Below are positions 11,423 to 64,000 of a DNA stretch of 64,000 nt, piece by piece (position 1 is the first letter of the stretch; each line of letters begins with the position of its first letter). Under the pieces are notes generated by a model. It was not told the DNA's origin and did not search any database. It saw nothing but the letters and a program-made list of their open reading frames with translations. The translations under genes and the position numbers were made by a program. This DNA comes from an uncultured Pelagibacteraceae bacterium (GTDB lineage Bacteria; Pseudomonadota; Alphaproteobacteria; Pelagibacterales; Pelagibacteraceae), in NCBI GenBank assembly GCA_902595885.1, contig CACJRQ010000001.1, forward strand, positions 124,001 to 188,000, read 5' to 3'.

Positions 11423-12367
11423 TTAATTTAATTTTTTCGGAGCTTTAAATACTACATCTTCTTTAATTATTTCAACTTCATCGATACTTATAGAAAATTT
11501 ATTTTTTAAATCATTAATAAAATTTTCAACCAATATTTCTGGCGCAGATGCTCCTGAAGATATACCTATAGTATTGCAATTTTCTATTTGATCAAATGGT
11601 ATTGAGCTTTCTGAGTGAATAAGTAGTGAATTTTCACAGCCTGATTTTTTTGCCACTTCAACTAGTCTAACAGAATTTGAAGAGTTTCTACTCCCAATAA
11701 CAAAAAACATATCACAATTTTTTGCAATATTTTTTACTGCCATTTGACGATTAGTAGTTGCATAACAAATATCTTCTTTCATTGGTTCTTTTAAACCAGG
11801 AAAATTAGTTTTTAAAATTTTGATTATTTCTTTTGTATCATCAACTGACAAAGTAGTCTGAGTAATATATGCCAATTTTTTATCTAGTTTATTTTGATAG
11901 TTTGTAGCATCTTCCTCATTTTGGATTAGATCTATAGAACCCTCATTTAATTGACCCATAGTTCCAATTACTTCTGGATGATTTTCATGACCAATTAAAA
12001 TTATATGGTAACCCGCTTTATTAAGATTTTCTGCTTCTCTATGAACCTTAGAAACAAGTGGACATGTAGCATCCACATAAGTCATTTTATAATTTTTTGC
12101 ATCTTCAGGTATTTTTTTTGGAACACCATGTGCTGAAAAAATTACTGGTCTTGATTTATCTTTTATCTCCTCCAGCTCTTCGACAAATATTGCTCCTTTA
12201 TTTTTTAAATCATCTACAACATACTTGTTGTGGACTATTTCATGACGCACATAAACTGGAGCTCCAAATTTTTGTATAGATTTTTCAACTATTTCAATTG
12301 CTCTTTCTACCCCGGCACAAAATCCACGGGGCGCAGATAATAATATTTTTAATTCTTTATTTTTCAT
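11423..12367 (-). CDS. ispH: 4-hydroxy-3-methylbut-2-enyl diphosphate reductase
   Basis: IspH performs the last step of the MEP pathway, reducing HMBPP to IPP and DMAPP with an iron-sulphur cluster. The three cluster cysteines are present: Cys17 in APRGFCAGVERAIE, the one in DATCPLVSKVH, and the one in EDICYATTNRQ. The substrate motif SGASAPE is intact. The 314-residue length is typical. It directly follows blh with an 11-base overlap, so an isoprenoid precursor enzyme is transcribed with the carotenoid and retinal genes. ispE, another MEP gene, is also in this window. Confidence 0.98.
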   Translation of the reverse strand: MKNKELKILLSAPRGFCAGVERAIEIVEKSIQKFGAPVYVRHEIVHNKYVVDDLKNKGAIFVEELEEIKDKSRPVIFSAHGVPKKIPEDAKNYKMTYVDATCPLVSKVHREAENLNKAGYHIILIGHENHPEVIGTMGQLNEGSIDLIQNEEDATNYQNKLDKKLAYITQTTLSVDDTKEIIKILKTNFPGLKEPMKEDICYATTNRQMAVKNIAKNCDMFFVIGSRNSSNSVRLVEVAKKSGCENSLLIHSESSIPFDQIENCNTIGISSGASAPEILVENFINDLKNKFSISIDEVEIIKEDVVFKAPKKLN

Positions 12368-13292
12368 TTTTTTCTAGAAAATATTCCAGCAATATATGTG
12401 GAAAGGTTAAAGACGCCAAACCTATAAATATTATTTTTAAAATTGCACTATCCAAATTGTATGAATTTTCTAGAAGATATAGAGCAATAAAAGAAAAAAT
12501 AGCTGTCAAAATTGTTAATGGTAAAGCTTTTTTAACAAATAATCTAAATCCATTAACTAAACTATTTGGATCAAGATCAATAGCTAGTGAAATTGAATGT
12601 CTAATCGAGTGTAAAAAACAGAAATAAACAGTAAAAGCTGTTAGTGGAGATAAATAGTAATTTAAAATTAAAATTGAAAAATAATCTAAAAAAACTACAA
12701 ATTTTTTGATTTCAAAATTCTTTAGGAAAAGAAAAATACTAGACAGGGTGCTAAAGAATATTCCTATTTGAATTACATTATTTGTCTCAATAAAATTTAA
12801 ACTTGAATAAAATGTCTCATTATCAATTAATAATAATTTAAAAATCGCTATTGTTTCCTGAAAATGAAAATATAAAGGAGCAAGTATAATTAAAAATCCC
12901 TTAAAAAAATAAAGTATTTGAGTGAAATAAGATCTATCATTAATCAAAAATTGTGTATCCTCTTTTCCAAAGTGATAGGAAGCGATAATTAAAAAAACAA
13001 TAAAAGTTATTGATGGCAATATTATCCAAGTTAGTATTACTATTGCTGCAATTAAAATATACGTGATATAGAATATATAAGTTGATTTTATATTAAATAA
13101 TCTTAGCAGTTTTTTTCCTTTTATATGGTCTAAAGACCCATGGGAAACACCTATAATTAAAATTAAAAGTAAACACAAAATTGATGAAATATTTAAATTA
13201 TTAAACTTAAATAGCAAAATACAAAAAAGGTTTACAACAAAGAAAAAAATAAATGAATGATTTAGATTTATTTTTTTTATTTTATTGATCAT
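12357..13292 (-). CDS. blh: Beta-carotene 15,15'-dioxygenase, Brp/Blh family (retinal-forming)
   Basis: Blh splits beta-carotene into two retinal molecules, the chromophore of proteorhodopsin. The 311-residue protein is an integral membrane protein with about eight helices. The histidine motifs that bind the active-site iron are clear: GVSHGSLDHIKGKK, ASYHFGKEDTQF and FLHSIRHS. It overlaps ispH by 11 bases downstream and follows crtY by one base. The local set crtI-crtB-crtY-blh covers phytoene formation through retinal. No rhodopsin gene occurs in this window, so the opsin must lie elsewhere in the genome; that it exists is inferred. Confidence 0.93.
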   Translation of the reverse strand: MINKIKKINLNHSFIFFFVVNLFCILLFKFNNLNISSILCLLLILIIGVSHGSLDHIKGKKLLRLFNIKSTYIFYITYILIAAIVILTWIILPSITFIVFLIIASYHFGKEDTQFLINDRSYFTQILYFFKGFLIILAPLYFHFQETIAIFKLLLIDNETFYSSLNFIETNNVIQIGIFFSTLSSIFLFLKNFEIKKFVVFLDYFSILILNYYLSPLTAFTVYFCFLHSIRHSISLAIDLDPNSLVNGFRLFVKKALPLTILTAIFSFIALYLLENSYNLDSAILKIIFIGLASLTFPHILLEYFLEKNEK

Positions 13293-13293
13293 C

Positions 13294-14358
13294 TTAAATT
13301 AATTCTTTTAAAAATTTCCACTTTGGCATTTTTAGAATTATTTCTAAATCTTCAAAAAAAGTGCTTTTATTTGATAAAAAATTGATAGCTGTTTTAGGTT
13401 TTGAATTAAAAACTTTGAAAAATATATTTCCCATTTCATTGGAATTGTTTTTAAGAACCCTCAATAAGATTTTATCTAAAAAATCATATTTTGAATTAAT
13501 TTTAAATAGATTTACATTTTTTATATTTTCTATGTTTTCTCTTATATATCTGCTTTGTTCTTGAATATTTAGGAAAGTATAGCCCGTACTTAATCTAGTC
13601 ATTCCTCCTGCTGAGCCTATATAAATTTCATTTAATTTGTTTACATTTTTTTGTCTAAAAAGTGGGATTGCTCCAGTTTCTTTGAAATTAATTTTACAGT
13701 TTCTTACATTTAGATGTTTACTTAAATAATTATCAATTTGTTCATCATAATCTTTTAGTTTTTTATCATTTAGTTCAGATATCCAAGTAGTTTCAACTAA
13801 GGCGTTTCTTTTTGTAAATGGTAGCGTATAAAAAAAATGAACTTTATTTCTTTGATCACAAGCAAAGTCCATCAAATTGAATATTTCTTCATCAAAGAAG
13901 TCTTTATCTGTTTCTATTTCAACTCCACAAAAGTGTTGCCATAACTCACTCTGTTTATTCTCAAAACTAGGTACACTATTAAAAACAACTGAATTTGATT
14001 TATCTATTTGATCAATACTTTTAAAAAACTGAATATTTTTATTTAATTTAAGTTTTGAAAGTATTTTTTTGTAGAACATACCACTATCTATCGTTTGATA
14101 TGGTGTAGGTTCGCAATTTACATATTTTGTATTATTGGGTGTATTTATTGTAAAATTATTCCAACTCTTTTTGATACAGTCATCGAAGTTATGTGAAAAA
14201 ACTTTCCAAAATGACCAAGTTTTATCTCTTTTATAATCTTCTCTTGGCTCAATAATTGCTAAAGTTTTATCTTTTAATTTATCATAAACTTCCAGCTCAT
14301 ATGCTAATGAAAGACCTGCGCAACCTCCACCTATAATTATGTAATCAAATTCTTTCAT
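13294..14358 (-). CDS. crtY: Lycopene beta-cyclase, CrtY type
   Basis: CrtY closes both ends of lycopene to give beta-carotene. The 354-residue flavoprotein has the dinucleotide-binding N-terminus YIIIGGGCAGLSLAYEL and the CrtY hallmark RDKTWSFW. The region GSAGGMTRLSTGYTFLNIQ matches the conserved G-x-T-R-P/L-S-T-G-Y segment of the family. It overlaps crtB by 14 bases, implying tight translational coupling. The product is the substrate of the neighbouring Blh. Confidence 0.95.
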   Translation of the reverse strand: MKEFDYIIIGGGCAGLSLAYELEVYDKLKDKTLAIIEPREDYKRDKTWSFWKVFSHNFDDCIKKSWNNFTINTPNNTKYVNCEPTPYQTIDSGMFYKKILSKLKLNKNIQFFKSIDQIDKSNSVVFNSVPSFENKQSELWQHFCGVEIETDKDFFDEEIFNLMDFACDQRNKVHFFYTLPFTKRNALVETTWISELNDKKLKDYDEQIDNYLSKHLNVRNCKINFKETGAIPLFRQKNVNKLNEIYIGSAGGMTRLSTGYTFLNIQEQSRYIRENIENIKNVNLFKINSKYDFLDKILLRVLKNNSNEMGNIFFKVFNSKPKTAINFLSNKSTFFEDLEIILKMPKWKFLKELI

Positions 14359-15196
14359 TTAAATTTATTTCTTCATTAATTAAATTATGATCATGATTAA
14401 TATTATCATCGTTTTTATTTATAATTGATAACTTAATTAAGTCAAAAATAGATAAAAAAGTTTCAATAATTTTTTCAATATTTGAAACATAAATTTTTCC
14501 TGACTTTTTATAATTTTCTATGTTTTGTTTATTTAAAATTTTATATCCTATTTTTCTATAAACCCTTCTTGCAACTAAAATAGAAAATCTGAAACTTAAT
14601 GGTATTTCTTTTATTGAGTAAAATGAGTTTTCATAAAACTTTTCTGAAAGCTTGATTGTAGTCTTTATGTCCTCAAAACTTTCATTGATATAAAATCTAC
14701 TATTTTTTTTATCTTCCATAACATCCCTAGAAATATTTGTTAATTGCATAGCAATCCCCAGATCAATAGCTGATTTAAGAGATTGTTCTTTGTGAACATT
14801 CAATATTTTAGCCATCATCAATCCAACTGTTCCAGCCACCCTATAGGAATAAATTAATAATTCTTTTTTTGAGTTAAGTTTAACATTTTCTTTTATATCA
14901 GAATTAATACCCTCAAATAAATCGTCTACAATTTTAGTTGAAATACTAAATTCATTAATAAGATCCCACATGTTTTTAATAACTGGATCATCATAATTTT
15001 TATTAACAAAATTGTTTCTAAATTTAATAAAATTATCTTTTTTTATTTCAATCTTGTTTGCCTCGTCAGCGATATTATCTGCTTCTCTACAAAAATCATA
15101 AAGCGCAGAGCATTTTTCATAGGTTTTTTTTGGTAAAAAAAAACCTGCCCAATTAAAAGATTTTGCGTAAATAGCTAAATAATTCTTTGTTAACAT
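14345..15196 (-). CDS. crtB: Phytoene synthase
   Basis: CrtB condenses two geranylgeranyl diphosphates head to head to form phytoene. The 283-residue protein has both aspartate-rich motifs of trans-isoprenyl synthases: DFCREADNIADE (DxxxD) and QLTNISRDVMED. RVAGTVGLMMAKIL, the conserved central helix, is also present. The C-terminal 30 residues are polar, Asn/Asp-rich and probably disordered. It shares one base with crtI. The geranylgeranyl diphosphate synthase (crtE) that supplies its substrate is not in the window. Confidence 0.96.
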   Translation of the reverse strand: MLTKNYLAIYAKSFNWAGFFLPKKTYEKCSALYDFCREADNIADEANKIEIKKDNFIKFRNNFVNKNYDDPVIKNMWDLINEFSISTKIVDDLFEGINSDIKENVKLNSKKELLIYSYRVAGTVGLMMAKILNVHKEQSLKSAIDLGIAMQLTNISRDVMEDKKNSRFYINESFEDIKTTIKLSEKFYENSFYSIKEIPLSFRFSILVARRVYRKIGYKILNKQNIENYKKSGKIYVSNIEKIIETFLSIFDLIKLSIINKNDDNINHDHNLINEEINLNERI

Positions 15197-16656
15197 TAAA
15201 ATAATTTATCTAAAACCTTCGCTGAAGAGAGAACACCTGGAACACCGGCCCCAGGATGTGTGCCCGCACCAACAAAGTACAAACCATCATATATTTCTGA
15301 TTTATTATGAAATCTAAAGTATGCTGATTGTGTAAATTTAGGTTGAATTGAAAACCCTGATCCAAATTTTGTATTTAATTCCTTTTCAAAGTAATCAGGT
15401 GTTAGATAAAAATCCTCAATTATATTATTCCTAAGATCGGGCATTAAGTCTTTTTCCATTTTTTCAATTACAAGATTTTTCATTTTTTCACCTTCAGTTT
15501 CCCAATTTATTTTTGACTGATTGTTAGGAACAGGTACTAACACATAAAAACAATCATTTCCTTCCGGGGCCATAGTTTTATCGGTTGCTGTAGGTCTATG
15601 AAGGTAATAGCTAATATCATTATTTAATTTTTTCTTATCAAATATATCATCCAGATGTTCTTTATACTTGTTTCCAAACTTTATTGTGTGATGTTCAACA
15701 TTCTCATAAATTTTTTTTGTTCCAAAATAGTAAACAAATAAACCCATAGAATATTCCATTCGATTTTTTTTCCAATTAAACAACATGGAATTTTCGTTGC
15801 TTTTGCTCAACATCTTCTCATAAAATGCAGGCGGATCTGCATTACAAACAACATTATCTGCACAAATTTCATTTTCATTATTTAATTTCACACCACTTAT
15901 TTTATTATTTTTTGTTATAATTTCCGTTACTTCACTTTTTTTTAATATTTCGATACCAACCTCATTCATTAACTTTTCAAAACCTTTAATTATATTTCCT
16001 GTTCCTCTAACTGAATAATGTATTCCCCATTTTTTTTCTAAATAAAGAATTAATCCATAAATAGAAGTGGTAGTAAAAGGATTTCCCCCAACTAGCAAAG
16101 GATGCATGCTAAGCATTCTTCTTAATTTTTCATTTTTTATGTAAGATGAAACAAGTGAGTAAACTGATTTATAACTTTTAAGTTTTAATAGAGCAGGTAA
16201 TTGTTGCATCATTACAAAAGGTTTATCAAATGGTACATCTGCAAGTTCTAAAAAACCTTTATCAAATATCTTTTTTGTAAAATTAACTAATTTTTCATAT
16301 CCATTTACATCTTCTTTGCTAAGCTTCTCAATTTGGTTTTTCATTTCTCTTTCATCACCAGAGTAGTTAAACTTGGTTTTATCTTCAAAAATAAATTGAT
16401 ACCAAATTTTAAGTGGGGTTAATTCTATATAATTTTTGGGATCTTTATTGAATAACTCAAATAATTCATTAATTAAGTAGGGTGCAGTAATTACCGTTGG
16501 TCCAGCATCATATATAAATCCATTTCTTTTAAAAACCCTAGCTCTACCACCTAGGTCTGGGTGTTTTTCTATTAATTTTACTTTATGTCCTTTTGCCTTA
16601 AGTCTTAGTGCTGCTGCGATCCCACCAAATCCTGATCCAATGACTATAGAGTTCAT
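15196..16656 (-). CDS. crtI: Phytoene desaturase
   Basis: CrtI converts phytoene to lycopene by successive FAD-dependent desaturations. The 486-residue protein has the FAD-binding start VIGSGFGGIAAALRL and the family motif LGGRARVFKRNGF. Its C-terminal FAD signature is YFVGAGTHPGAGVPGVLSSAK. It is the first gene of crtI-crtB-crtY-blh-ispH-thrB-rnhA and starts 39 bases after the atpF stop on the same strand. A weak -10-like element lies in that gap, so the cluster may be read both from its own promoter and by read-through from the ATP synthase genes. Confidence 0.97.
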   Translation of the reverse strand: MNSIVIGSGFGGIAAALRLKAKGHKVKLIEKHPDLGGRARVFKRNGFIYDAGPTVITAPYLINELFELFNKDPKNYIELTPLKIWYQFIFEDKTKFNYSGDEREMKNQIEKLSKEDVNGYEKLVNFTKKIFDKGFLELADVPFDKPFVMMQQLPALLKLKSYKSVYSLVSSYIKNEKLRRMLSMHPLLVGGNPFTTTSIYGLILYLEKKWGIHYSVRGTGNIIKGFEKLMNEVGIEILKKSEVTEIITKNNKISGVKLNNENEICADNVVCNADPPAFYEKMLSKSNENSMLFNWKKNRMEYSMGLFVYYFGTKKIYENVEHHTIKFGNKYKEHLDDIFDKKKLNNDISYYLHRPTATDKTMAPEGNDCFYVLVPVPNNQSKINWETEGEKMKNLVIEKMEKDLMPDLRNNIIEDFYLTPDYFEKELNTKFGSGFSIQPKFTQSAYFRFHNKSEIYDGLYFVGAGTHPGAGVPGVLSSAKVLDKLF

Positions 16657-59847: not shown

Positions 59848-59887
59848 TCTTTTGAAGAATTTTTTCTTTAAAGTAGATTTAAAAATT

Positions 59888-60349
59888 ATGTCATTAAAAC
59901 AAACTATCGAAAACGAATATAAAAACGCTCTAAAATCTAAAGATAAAAATAAAATATCAACCTATAGGTTAATATTATCTTCTATTAAGGATTTGGACAT
60001 TGTTAATAGATCGGGCCCCAATAAAAAAGAAACAGATGATGAGGATATTAAGAAACTTTTAAAAAAAATGGTTAAACAGAGGGCCGAATCGATCGATATT
60101 TATAAAAAAAACAATAGAACAGATCTTTTAGAGGTTGAGCAAAATGAATATGATATTTTAACAAGTTTTTTACCAAAGCAGCTTAGTGAAGAGGAAACCA
60201 AGAAAATTTGTGCAGATGTTATCTCAAAAATTGGAGCAAATTCATTAAAAGATATGGGAAAAGTTATGGGTGAACTCAAAAAAACTCATGCAGACGAAAT
60301 TGATTTTTCCAAAGCAGGATCAATGATCAAAGAATTGTTGAACAAATAA
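59888..60349 (+). CDS. GatB/YqeY domain protein
   Basis: The start is the ATG at 59888 (MSLKQTIENEYKNALKSKDK); the track uses an upstream TTG. The 153-residue protein has the YqeY pattern KISTYRLILSSIKD, KMVKQRAESIDIYKKNNRTDLLEVEQNEYDIL, FLPKQLSEEE and GKVMGELKKTHADEIDFSKAGSMIKELL. YqeY resembles the tRNA-binding tail of GatB. It takes the place of rpsU in the rpsU-dnaG-rpoD operon, an order known from other alphaproteobacteria. The stop overlaps dnaG (TAATG). Confidence 0.93.
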   Translation: MSLKQTIENEYKNALKSKDKNKISTYRLILSSIKDLDIVNRSGPNKKETDDEDIKKLLKKMVKQRAESIDIYKKNNRTDLLEVEQNEYDILTSFLPKQLSEEETKKICADVISKIGANSLKDMGKVMGELKKTHADEIDFSKAGSMIKELLNK

Positions 60350-62124
60350 TGAAATACCCAAAAGAATACCTTGATGAAATCAAAAATAGGTTGAAAGTTT
60401 CAACGGTAGTATCAAAAACTGTTTCCTTAAAAAAAAGAGGTAAAGAATTTGTGGGTCTATCACCTTTTAAAAATGAAAAAACACCTTCATTTACAGTGAA
60501 TGATGAAAAAGAATTTTATCATTGTTTTGCAACTTCTGAACACGGTAATATTTTTGATTTTGTCATGAAAACTCAAAATTTAAAATTTGGCGAAGCAATC
60601 AAATATTTAGCTCAGTTAGCAGGTATGCAGCCATATATGTTTTCAAAACAAGATGAGGAAAGAGAGAAAAAATGGAATGAGTATAAATCTATTTTTAATA
60701 ATTACGTAGATTTTTATCACAATGAACTTTTAAAAAATGAAGATTATTCAATTGCTAGAGTTTATTTAAAAAAAAGATCACTAGGTAAGGATGAGGTAAA
60801 AAAATTTAAAATTGGATACATAGAAAAAAATCCAAATTTTTTTGAAAAATTAAAAAAAGACCATAGCGAACAAACTTTAGTAGAAACTGGTTTATTTTAT
60901 TTAGACGAGAAAAAAAAAATATATGTTGAAAGATTTAGAGGTAGATTAATATTTCCAATCAATAATATTTCAGGCCAACCAATAGCTTTGGGTGGAAGAA
61001 TAATTGAAAATTTAGATTACTTAGCTAAATATATAAATTCACCTGAAACAAATTTTTTTAAAAAAGGATCTAATTTATACAATTTAGACTTAGCAAGGAA
61101 ACTATCTAATAAAATTGATCATATTTATCTGGTTGAAGGATATATGGATGTTGTAGGTCTCAGCAAAAATGGAATCGATAATGTAGTAGCAAATCTTGGT
61201 ACGTCTTTAACTGAAAAGCAAATTTTAACTTTAAATCAATTTTTTGATGATATCATAATATGTTTTGATGGTGATGAAAGTGGATATAAAGCTGCTGTTA
61301 GAGCTGCTGAAAATTCAATAAAGGAATTGAAACCTGAAAAACAAATTTCATTTTTGTTTCTACCAGATAAAGAAGATCCAGATAGTTATGTAAATAAAAA
61401 TGGTAAGGCTAATTTTGTAGATTTTACAAAGCAGAGCAAACTATCAATTCATCAATTTATTTTTAGTCATTATAAAAAGCAAACTAAAAATAATCCTTCA
61501 TCGATGGCTATTTTTGAAAAAAAACTAAGAGAAATTGCAAATACAATAAAAGATGATTTTATAAAAAAATATGTTTTAGAATATTTTTTAGAAAAAATTG
61601 CTGAGTTAACACCACATTCCAATCAAAATAATAAAAGATTTTATTCAAAGAAAACAAAATCTTTAGAAAGCACAAAAAAATATTTTAAAGAAAGTCAGTC
61701 TTTGACTGGAGTAGAATTAAAGGAGTTTTCTTTATTATACTTGGTGATAAATAATCTTGATTTGTTGCAAGCAAATATTCATTTGATTGAAAATATTAAA
61801 TTATTTACTGAGTTTAATAAAAAAATATTTGAAATGATTGTTGAAAAATTAAAATCTGGTTCTAAAATTACAATTGAAGATCTTAATTTGGATATTCAAT
61901 TAACAGAAAAAATAAATAAATTTGCTCCAATCAAACATATTCTAAAAAATCAGTCTAATGATGATCAAAAAATAATAGAATTATTAGAGGATATCTCTAG
62001 GGATTTAATGAATTATGATCTCGAGTTCAGAATTCAGGAATTAGAATCGAAGTTTTCAGTGGACATGAGTGAGTCTACATTTAATGAGTTAAAAGAGCTC
62101 AAAAAAAAGCAGAATCTCAATTAA
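60349..62124 (+). CDS. dnaG: DNA primase with a degenerate zinc-binding domain
   Basis: DnaG synthesises RNA primers for replication. The 591-residue protein has the three usual parts: an N-terminal domain, a TOPRIM core (LVEGYMDVVGLSKNGIDNVVA and IICFDGDESGYKAAVRAAE) and a diverged helicase-binding C-terminus. The N-terminal zinc ribbon normally has the ligands Cys, His, Cys, Cys. Here they read Ser38, Lys41, Cys59 and Thr62 (GLSPFKNEKTPSF and YHCFATSEHGN), so three of four are lost although the surrounding family sequence is intact. I checked the codons directly: TCA, AAA, TGT, ACT. Confidence 0.96.
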   Translation: MKYPKEYLDEIKNRLKVSTVVSKTVSLKKRGKEFVGLSPFKNEKTPSFTVNDEKEFYHCFATSEHGNIFDFVMKTQNLKFGEAIKYLAQLAGMQPYMFSKQDEEREKKWNEYKSIFNNYVDFYHNELLKNEDYSIARVYLKKRSLGKDEVKKFKIGYIEKNPNFFEKLKKDHSEQTLVETGLFYLDEKKKIYVERFRGRLIFPINNISGQPIALGGRIIENLDYLAKYINSPETNFFKKGSNLYNLDLARKLSNKIDHIYLVEGYMDVVGLSKNGIDNVVANLGTSLTEKQILTLNQFFDDIIICFDGDESGYKAAVRAAENSIKELKPEKQISFLFLPDKEDPDSYVNKNGKANFVDFTKQSKLSIHQFIFSHYKKQTKNNPSSMAIFEKKLREIANTIKDDFIKKYVLEYFLEKIAELTPHSNQNNKRFYSKKTKSLESTKKYFKESQSLTGVELKEFSLLYLVINNLDLLQANIHLIENIKLFTEFNKKIFEMIVEKLKSGSKITIEDLNLDIQLTEKINKFAPIKHILKNQSNDDQKIIELLEDISRDLMNYDLEFRIQELESKFSVDMSESTFNELKELKKKQNLN

Positions 62125-62190: not shown

Positions 62191-64000
62191 GTGGAAAGAA
62201 TTATTACAAAATCATTTGCTAGACTAATGGGTCGAGGAACTCATAGAGGCTTTATAACTTATGAAGAATTAAGCAAGTCATTAGGTAAAAGAAATTTGTC
62301 AGATGAAAATTTAGCTCAAGCTTTTATTCATATATTAGATGAAAACATTTCATTAGTTCAGAAAAAATCTGATTTTAAGGTTTTAAGAAAAAAAGAGAAC
62401 TCAAATAAAGAAGAGGGTAAAACAATTGAAAAAAGTGATGACCCTATAAGAATGTATTTGCGTGAAATGGGTGGTGTAGAACTTCTTTCAAGAGAAGGTG
62501 AGATAGCAATAGCAAAAAGGATTGAAGCTGGAAAAGATGTAATGCTAATAGCTCTTTCTCAAAGTCCAATTACTGCACAACAGTTTTTTGAATGGAATAA
62601 TCAACTCCAAAAAGACGAAATCTTGGTTAGAGAAATAATTGATATTGATACAAATTATATGGAAGATGAAAGTACAGGACCAAGTGCAAAACAGAAAAAT
62701 TCTGGTGAACTAGAAAAAGATGAGGGTCAAACGGAGGAAGATGAAGATTTTAATCCTACCCTTGCGGCAATGGAGTCCGAGATAAAACCAAAAGTTTTAA
62801 AAACAATCAATACACTAACTAAAGAATATTCAAAACTAATAAAGTACCAGAAGGAAAAACTAGAATGTATTTTAAATAGTCAAACATTTTCAACAGCTAA
62901 AGAAAAAGGGTATGAAAAAGTAGTTAATGATATCCTGGAGAATATAAAATCACTACAATTATCTCCCTCAGTTCTAGAAGAGTTAGTTCAAAAACATTAT
63001 ATTGAAAACAAAAAAATAATTTCACTTGAGGGAAATCTTTTAAGACTTGCAATGGATCAAAAAATCTCAAGAAATGAGTTTATTAAATTTTATGTTGGAA
63101 ATGAAATAAATCCAAATTTAAAAAAATTTTTAGATACCAATGTTGTCTGGAAACAATTTTTCAATAAGAATAAAGAAGAATTTAAAAATATAAGAGAAAG
63201 GTTAATTGAAATTAGTTATAAACTTGGAATATCTGTAACTGATTTCAAGAAATTAGTAAGCAGAATTCAAAAGGGAGAAAAGGAATCAAGAATAGCAAAA
63301 AAAGAAATGGTAGAAGCCAATTTAAGATTGGTAATTTCTATTGCAAAAAAATATACAAATAGAGGATTGCAATTTTTAGATTTAATTCAAGAGGGAAATA
63401 TTGGTTTAATGAAAGCTGTAGATAAATTTGAATACAGAAGAGGTTATAAATTTTCTACATATGCAACGTGGTGGATTAGACAAGCGATAACTAGATCAAT
63501 TGCCGATCAAGCTAGAACTATACGTATTCCTGTTCATATGATTGAAACAATAAATAAAATTGTGCGAACTCAAAGATTAATATTAAGTGAATTTGGTAGA
63601 GAAGCTACCCCTGAAGAATTAGCAAAAAAACTGAGAATGCCTTTAGATAAAGTTAGAAAGGTACTAAAAATATCTAAAGAACCTGTTTCTTTAGAAAAAC
63701 CTGTAGGAGATGAAGAAGATAGTAGCTTGGGGGACTTTATTGAAGATACAAAAGCTTTGGCTCCTCTTGAACAGGCAATAAAATCAAATCTAGGCGAAGC
63801 AACAACAAAAATACTTTCCACATTAACTCCAAGGGAAGAAAGAGTTTTGAGAATGAGATTTGGAGTAGGAATGAACACCGATCATACCTTAGAGGAAGTT
63901 GGATTACAATTTTCTGTAACGAGGGAAAGGATTAGACAGATTGAAGCTAAAGCACTTAGAAAATTAAAACATCCTAGTAGATCTAAACAATTAAAAAGTT
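62191..64000 (+). CDS. rpoD: RNA polymerase primary sigma factor, truncated at the window edge
   Basis: This gene is absent from the ORF track because its stop lies beyond 64000. The likely start is GTG 62191, since [28 protein letters not shown] aligns with region 1.1; the ATG 62227 is an alternative. Region 1.2 is [20 protein letters not shown], followed by an acidic insert (EDEDFNPTL). Region 2 ([50 protein letters not shown]), region 3 and region 4 ([36 protein letters not shown]) follow. About 603 codons are present, and only a few residues seem to be missing. Confidence 0.96.

Follow-up and report, generated by a model that had tools for sequence, protein, structure and literature searches.

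Textbook DnaG primases carry an N-terminal ribbon whose zinc ligands are CHCC (Cys-x2-His ... Cys-x2-Cys). In a 64,000-nucleotide stretch of an uncultured Pelagibacteraceae (SAR11) genome (the window; assembly GCA_902595885.1, contig CACJRQ010000001.1, positions 124,001 to 188,000), the corresponding residues of dnaG are Ser38, Lys41, Cys59 and Thr62. Is this the ordinary primase of its host, how far does the change extend, and what does it imply for zinc in the primase ribbon?

The primase of the window and its ribbon

Features are given in window coordinates, all on the forward (+) strand, with their basis in brackets.

59852-60349, +, yqeY-like gene directly upstream of dnaG (PF09424, 146.7 bits)
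60349-62124, +, dnaG, DNA primase of 591 aa with an ATG start (TIGR01391 and Pfam matches)
60349-60630, +, N-terminal ribbon domain, residues 1-94, without zinc ligands (PF01807 and 1D0Q superposition)
60451-60453, +, Val35, linked site; Val, Ile or Ala in zinc-less forms, Thr, Lys, Ser or Trp in CHCC forms (alignment)
60460-60462, +, Ser38, codon TCA, ligand position 1; Cys in CHCC forms (alignment)
60469-60471, +, Lys41, codon AAA, ligand position 2; His in CHCC forms (alignment)
60523-60525, +, Cys59, codon TGT, ligand position 3, retained in SAR11 (alignment)
60529-60531, +, Ala61, linked site; Ser or Ala in zinc-less forms, Gly in 99% of CHCC forms (alignment)
60532-60534, +, Thr62, codon ACT, ligand position 4; Cys in CHCC forms, Ser or Thr in zinc-less forms (alignment)
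60538-60540, +, Glu64, linked site adjoining His65; Glu or Lys in zinc-less forms, mostly Ala in CHCC forms (alignment)
60661-61488, +, RNA polymerase (TOPRIM) domain with E263, D307 and D309 (Pfam, alignment, Foldseek)
61657-62118, +, C-terminal helical domain, probably DnaB-binding (predicted helices, residues 437-590)
62191-63999, +, rpoD (sigma-70), extending past the window end (PF04546, PF04542, PF04539, PF04545)

The start of dnaG overlaps the yqeY-like gene by one base, and rpoD follows in the usual dnaG-rpoD order. The 591-aa product scores 392.5 bits against the NCBIfam dnaG equivalog TIGR01391 (cut-off 283.6) and matches the Pfam models Zn_ribbon_DnaG, Toprim and DNAG_N. The TOPRIM acids E263, D307 and D309 and the DNA-binding residues, aligned to the E. 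coli core, are invariant in an alignment of 99 sequences, and the modeled catalytic domain matches the E. coli, Pseudomonas and Staphylococcus primase cores (Foldseek). The C-terminal domain returned no match in a Pfam search; its predicted helices resemble the E. coli DnaG domain bound to DnaB (9eco_G; TM 0.70 to target, with a weak E of 0.41). A PF01807 search of the genome, whose assembly is about 84% complete, revealed a single DnaG, and no second, compensating primase was detected with this model in the host genome or in the best SAR11 assemblies. Gene order, equivalog match and intact TOPRIM residues identify this DnaG as the ordinary and sole primase of its host.

Elsewhere in the window, positions 12357-16656 hold a probable carotenoid/retinal cluster, in which a beta-carotene-dioxygenase-like membrane protein and crtY-, crtB- and crtI-like genes were recognized by eye from translations. 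Such genes are expected in proteorhodopsin-bearing SAR11.

Aligned with PF01807 and other DnaGs, Ser38, Lys41, Cys59 and Thr62 fall in the CHCC columns, and they do not form the Cys-x2-His plus Cys-x2-Cys pattern of that family. A sequence-only reading of this DNA had proposed that three of the four ligands are gone while flanking family residues are kept, and codons and alignment bear this out: SPF, NEKTPSF, HCF and HG are all retained. The domain still matches PF01807 over residues 4-94 at 102.1 bits (cut-off 24.9) despite the missing ligands. A search of residues 1-94 for a substitute Cys/His set, which the same reading had raised as a counter-explanation, found only His58, Cys59 and His65; because the domain holds no further Cys or His, no replacement metal site is evident.

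The change is fixed in SAR11. The ligand sites read S-[K/S/T/N]-C-[T/S] in 102 of 102 sequences, with Cys59 invariant, site 62 always Thr or Ser, and His58, Cys59 and His65 conserved; dnaG itself is present, one copy each, in 51 of 61 genomes of the genus and 121 of 147 of the family. Ser38 is encoded by TCT, TCA, TCG, TCC, AGC and AGT across the group. Since the TCN and AGY serine families are not one step apart, this constancy points to purifying selection on the replacing residues rather than drift. Sequencing error at the ligand codons, a possible objection to the original observation, is ruled out by loss in all 102 sequences with synonymous turnover. From its residues, we infer that the SAR11 DnaG ribbon contains no bound metal.

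Structure prediction indicates a ribbon that stays folded without metal. In a full-length ColabFold model (99 sequences) pLDDT is 94-97 over most of the ribbon, and in a model of residues 1-105 built from zinc-less sequences only it is about 93. Both superpose on the zinc-bound Bacillus stearothermophilus domain 1D0Q at 0.9-1.0 Å over 92 columns (Foldseek; TM 0.86-0.87 to target), although these are predictions and may owe the ribbon shape to zinc-bound homologues. The earlier suggestion of a preserved metal-free fold thus stands at the level of prediction.

Distribution and signature of zinc-less ribbons

The sequence-only reading implied a change peculiar to SAR11, which is wrong: the same replacement occurs in other alphaproteobacterial groups. 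In an even draw of the class Alphaproteobacteria, with low-scoring matches also read and one representative taken per family, 15 families plus two SAR11 families were zinc-less versus 110 CHCC representatives; most alphaproteobacterial families retain CHCC. Scanning the GTDB genome collection with the exact pattern of the zinc-less second motif half returned at least 120 stretches. Among the matches listed, nearly all are Alphaproteobacteria, including Hyphomicrobiales (Bradyrhizobium, Methylobacterium, Microvirga, Nitrobacter, Xanthobacter, Ancylobacter, Parvibaculum), Caulobacterales (Caulobacter, Brevundimonas, Asticcacaulis), Maricaulales, some Rhodobacterales, part of Rhodovibrionaceae, and Pelagibacteraceae. 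Among 398 genomes drawn from the phylum, 31 matched the zinc-less pattern, every one in the class Alphaproteobacteria, and 140 matched the CHCC pattern, of which 36, as counted among the matches listed, belong to that class. These patterns miss variants, namely f133 members (WFDFSSG) and f134 members (CHCC with an extra loop), which were read directly instead. Zinc-less DnaGs (L285, L336, L259, L282) also come from assemblies that bear the names of Hydrocarboniphaga (gamma), Bordetella (beta) and Marinimicrobia; the one named Bordetella looks like misbinned Caulobacteraceae.

This distribution bears on the idea, also from the sequence-only reading, that SAR11 shed its primase zinc because ocean water is zinc-poor. 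The host is indeed a marine SAR11 with a small genome, and the change is fixed across the order. The zinc-less state, however, is also found in Alphaproteobacteria that live in soil, in freshwater or with plants and have genomes of 3-9 Mb, such as Bradyrhizobium, Methylobacterium, Caulobacter and Brevundimonas. In addition, the zinc cysteines of ClpX (CSFC...CDEC), DnaJ and a UvrA-like protein are intact in this SAR11 genome, leaving a general shedding of zinc by SAR11 unsupported. Non-marine distribution and these intact sites together contradict ocean metal economy, which we regard as highly improbable.

Ligand state is all-or-none: more than 350 sequences carry either CHCC or S-x-(C/D)-(S/T/A), and none has a partial set. 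One apparent mixture, CHDC in L131, proved to be a misread pattern. Three further sites covary with the ligands (i.e., site 61 from Gly to Ser or Ala, site 64 from mostly Ala to Glu or Lys, and site 35 from polar or Trp to Val, Ile or Ala). Site 59 is Asp in many Caulobacterales and Hyphomicrobiales, including Bradyrhizobium-like groups, and at site 62 a single one of 264 sequences departs from Ser or Thr.

Could the ribbon still hold metal through His58, Cys59 and His65, or through ligands shared between two proteins? All three residues are conserved in SAR11. His58 and His65, however, are also present in CHCC forms and so are not new ligands, many zinc-less relatives carry Asp in place of Cys59, some (f133, f53) lack both histidines, and the ribbon domain has gained no Cys or His; metal retention is thus very unlikely.

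The opposite possibility, that the ribbon is a decaying, functionless remnant, could draw on the altered ligand positions and on groups that are short of further family residues. Against it, Ser38 is invariant despite its codon-family switches, site 62 is nearly as constrained, predicted confidence is high, and 52 zinc-less sequences share 12 invariant ribbon columns with 23 more at least 90% conserved. We consider a functionless ribbon extremely unlikely.

Several unusual ribbons were observed beside these main types. Further decay is seen in L426 and L428 (f133, genomes of 7.5-8.8 Mb) and in L427 and L430 (f53), with Cys59 changed to Asp, His58 to Phe and His65 to Asn or Thr; the motifs read WFDFSSGLNGN in f133 and FFDFSSGKTGD in f53. 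In a second CHCC type, an additional loop lies ahead of the first Cys (KKSNPxRGDYWACCPFH; L412-L416, L419, L421-L423, L425, L202, L207, L210, L221, L225, L231, L237); this type is concentrated in families with catalytic domains near the zinc-less ones. In L242 (G277, f73), a CHCC genome, an intein-like insertion lies in the ribbon directly before the third ligand (HCFAAETNVITRDG ... NCFGCG).

Repeated change on the catalytic-domain tree

Alignment across the Alphaproteobacteria, which the sequence-only reading had advised for dating the loss, placed it far beyond SAR11; as to how often it happened, the catalytic-domain tree indicates several changes. Quick trees of wide samples gave 12-16 changes of zinc state and a careful 38-row tree gave 7, with a single change in no bootstrap tree; the deep part of the catalytic-domain tree is weakly resolved, with long branches. 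Constraining all zinc-less forms to one clade was rejected on the catalytic domain (p-AU 3.4e-5), as was placing the zinc-less Rhodovibrionaceae with the zinc-less forms of Hyphomicrobiales and Caulobacterales (p-AU 1.3e-4), and the zinc-less Rhodovibrionaceae nest among CHCC members of their own family with 99-100% support. Zinc state has therefore changed more than once on the catalytic-domain tree.

Repeated change on this tree need not mean repeated loss. The zinc-less ribbon may have arisen once, early in the Alphaproteobacteria, and then spread or been replaced by exchange of the 5' part of dnaG. With the six signature sites removed, ribbon-only data favored a single zinc-less group (lnL +38.9, p-AU 0.88), and 88 random catalytic-domain columns opposed such a group (lnL -50.7, p-AU 0.08). 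Furthermore, the zinc-less L374 and the loop-type CHCC L423 are catalytic-domain sisters (100% SH-aLRT) with different ribbon cores. The preference of the ribbon for one group disappeared, however, when five more covarying sites were removed (lnL -7.9, p-AU 0.39), and the one-group signal may thus be convergence; likewise, L238 combines the zinc-less state with a background resembling the loop type (RGDWWGNSPF...SFHV), pointing to a loss of its own. We hold a single early origin followed by exchange to be possible, though less likely than not. As a separate observation, the ribbon cores of L374 and L423 differ between similar flanks, which suggests segment exchange. The best reading is a recurrent transition in Alphaproteobacteria, by repeated loss, ribbon-segment exchange, or both.

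Function of a probably metal-free ribbon

Taken together, these data make it very probable that the window encodes an ordinary SAR11 replicative primase whose ribbon is metal-free, folded and most likely doing the same job, as one case of the recurrent alphaproteobacterial transition. The metal-free ribbon would still hold template DNA beside the catalytic domain, and a conserved set of small, polar or hydrophobic residues (Ser38, Lys/Thr/Ser41, Cys59, Ala/Ser61, Thr/Ser62, Glu/Lys64 and Val35) would take the place of the zinc site.

A related proposal is that zinc loss accompanies an altered start-site preference or an altered contact between ribbon and catalytic domain. In its favor, site 64, where Glu or Lys replaces Ala, covaries with ligand loss and adjoins the column matching Lys70 of the Clostridioides difficile primase, which we take to be His65 here by its place in the motif rather than by alignment; changing Lys70, beside the zinc ribbon, to His alters trinucleotide use in that enzyme (PMC5204125). 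The N-terminal domain is required for stable template binding in Bacillus subtilis DnaG (PMC5429622); it also governs recognition in T7-like primases, and sets it in Arabidopsis Twinkle (PMC10557236). However, no catalytic-domain column separates the two zinc states as cleanly as the ribbon sites do, and most non-ligand ribbon residues are retained in zinc-less forms. We regard an altered preference or contact as possible but rather unlikely. A broader version, in which Alphaproteobacteria switch repeatedly between zinc-bound and metal-free ribbons, partly by segment exchange, and in which the metal-free type differs in start-site preference and in its contact with the catalytic domain, is likewise doubtful.

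Known systems place this primase in context. With the bacterial DnaGs of E. coli, B. stearothermophilus (1D0Q) and Aquifex (2AU3), the SAR11 form shares domain order, TOPRIM core, the predicted ribbon fold, rpoD gene order and the motifs around the metal site; it differs from them in lacking three of the four ligands and in its residues at sites 35, 61 and 64. Topoisomerase I offers a parallel for the loss itself: some ribbons of this replication-related enzyme (PF08272, Topo_Zn_Ribbon; D8 and D9 of E. coli TOP1) have lost their cysteines, with the DNA-binding mode reported to be kept (PMC9369019), so a metal-free DNA-binding ribbon has precedent. There, however, the ribbon is an accessory repeat among intact ones, whereas in SAR11 DnaG it is the sole ribbon of an essential primase. 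The N-terminal domain of animal Twinkle is a fold neighbor of the SAR11 DnaG model (Foldseek); this primase-type region has lost its primase residues, and the human domain is reported still to bind DNA (PMC9860392). Animal Twinkle lost primase activity, whereas SAR11 DnaG retains its catalytic residues as the sole primase. TtDnaG2, another DnaG-type primase, has an atypical ribbon-catalytic arrangement and low start-site specificity; its conserved ribbon sites are described as sequestered, and the consulted part of that report mentions no ligand loss (PMC5634424). A review describes the role of the primase zinc motif in template recognition as unresolved (PMC6163395). Searches of the open-access literature turned up no report of zinc-ligand loss in alphaproteobacterial DnaG.

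In an essential enzyme, the zinc-less ribbon is a real and fixed form of a known domain; judged by its residues it is probably metal-free, and it is widespread in Alphaproteobacteria. For annotation it carries a warning: a 'CHC2 zinc finger' match can score far above its cut-off in proteins without the ligands. For primase biology, the class would offer natural pairs: primases with probably metal-free ribbons occur beside zinc-bound ones, in Rhodovibrionaceae inside a single family, and models such as Caulobacter can be cultured. The role of zinc in primase may thus be tested by comparing such pairs.
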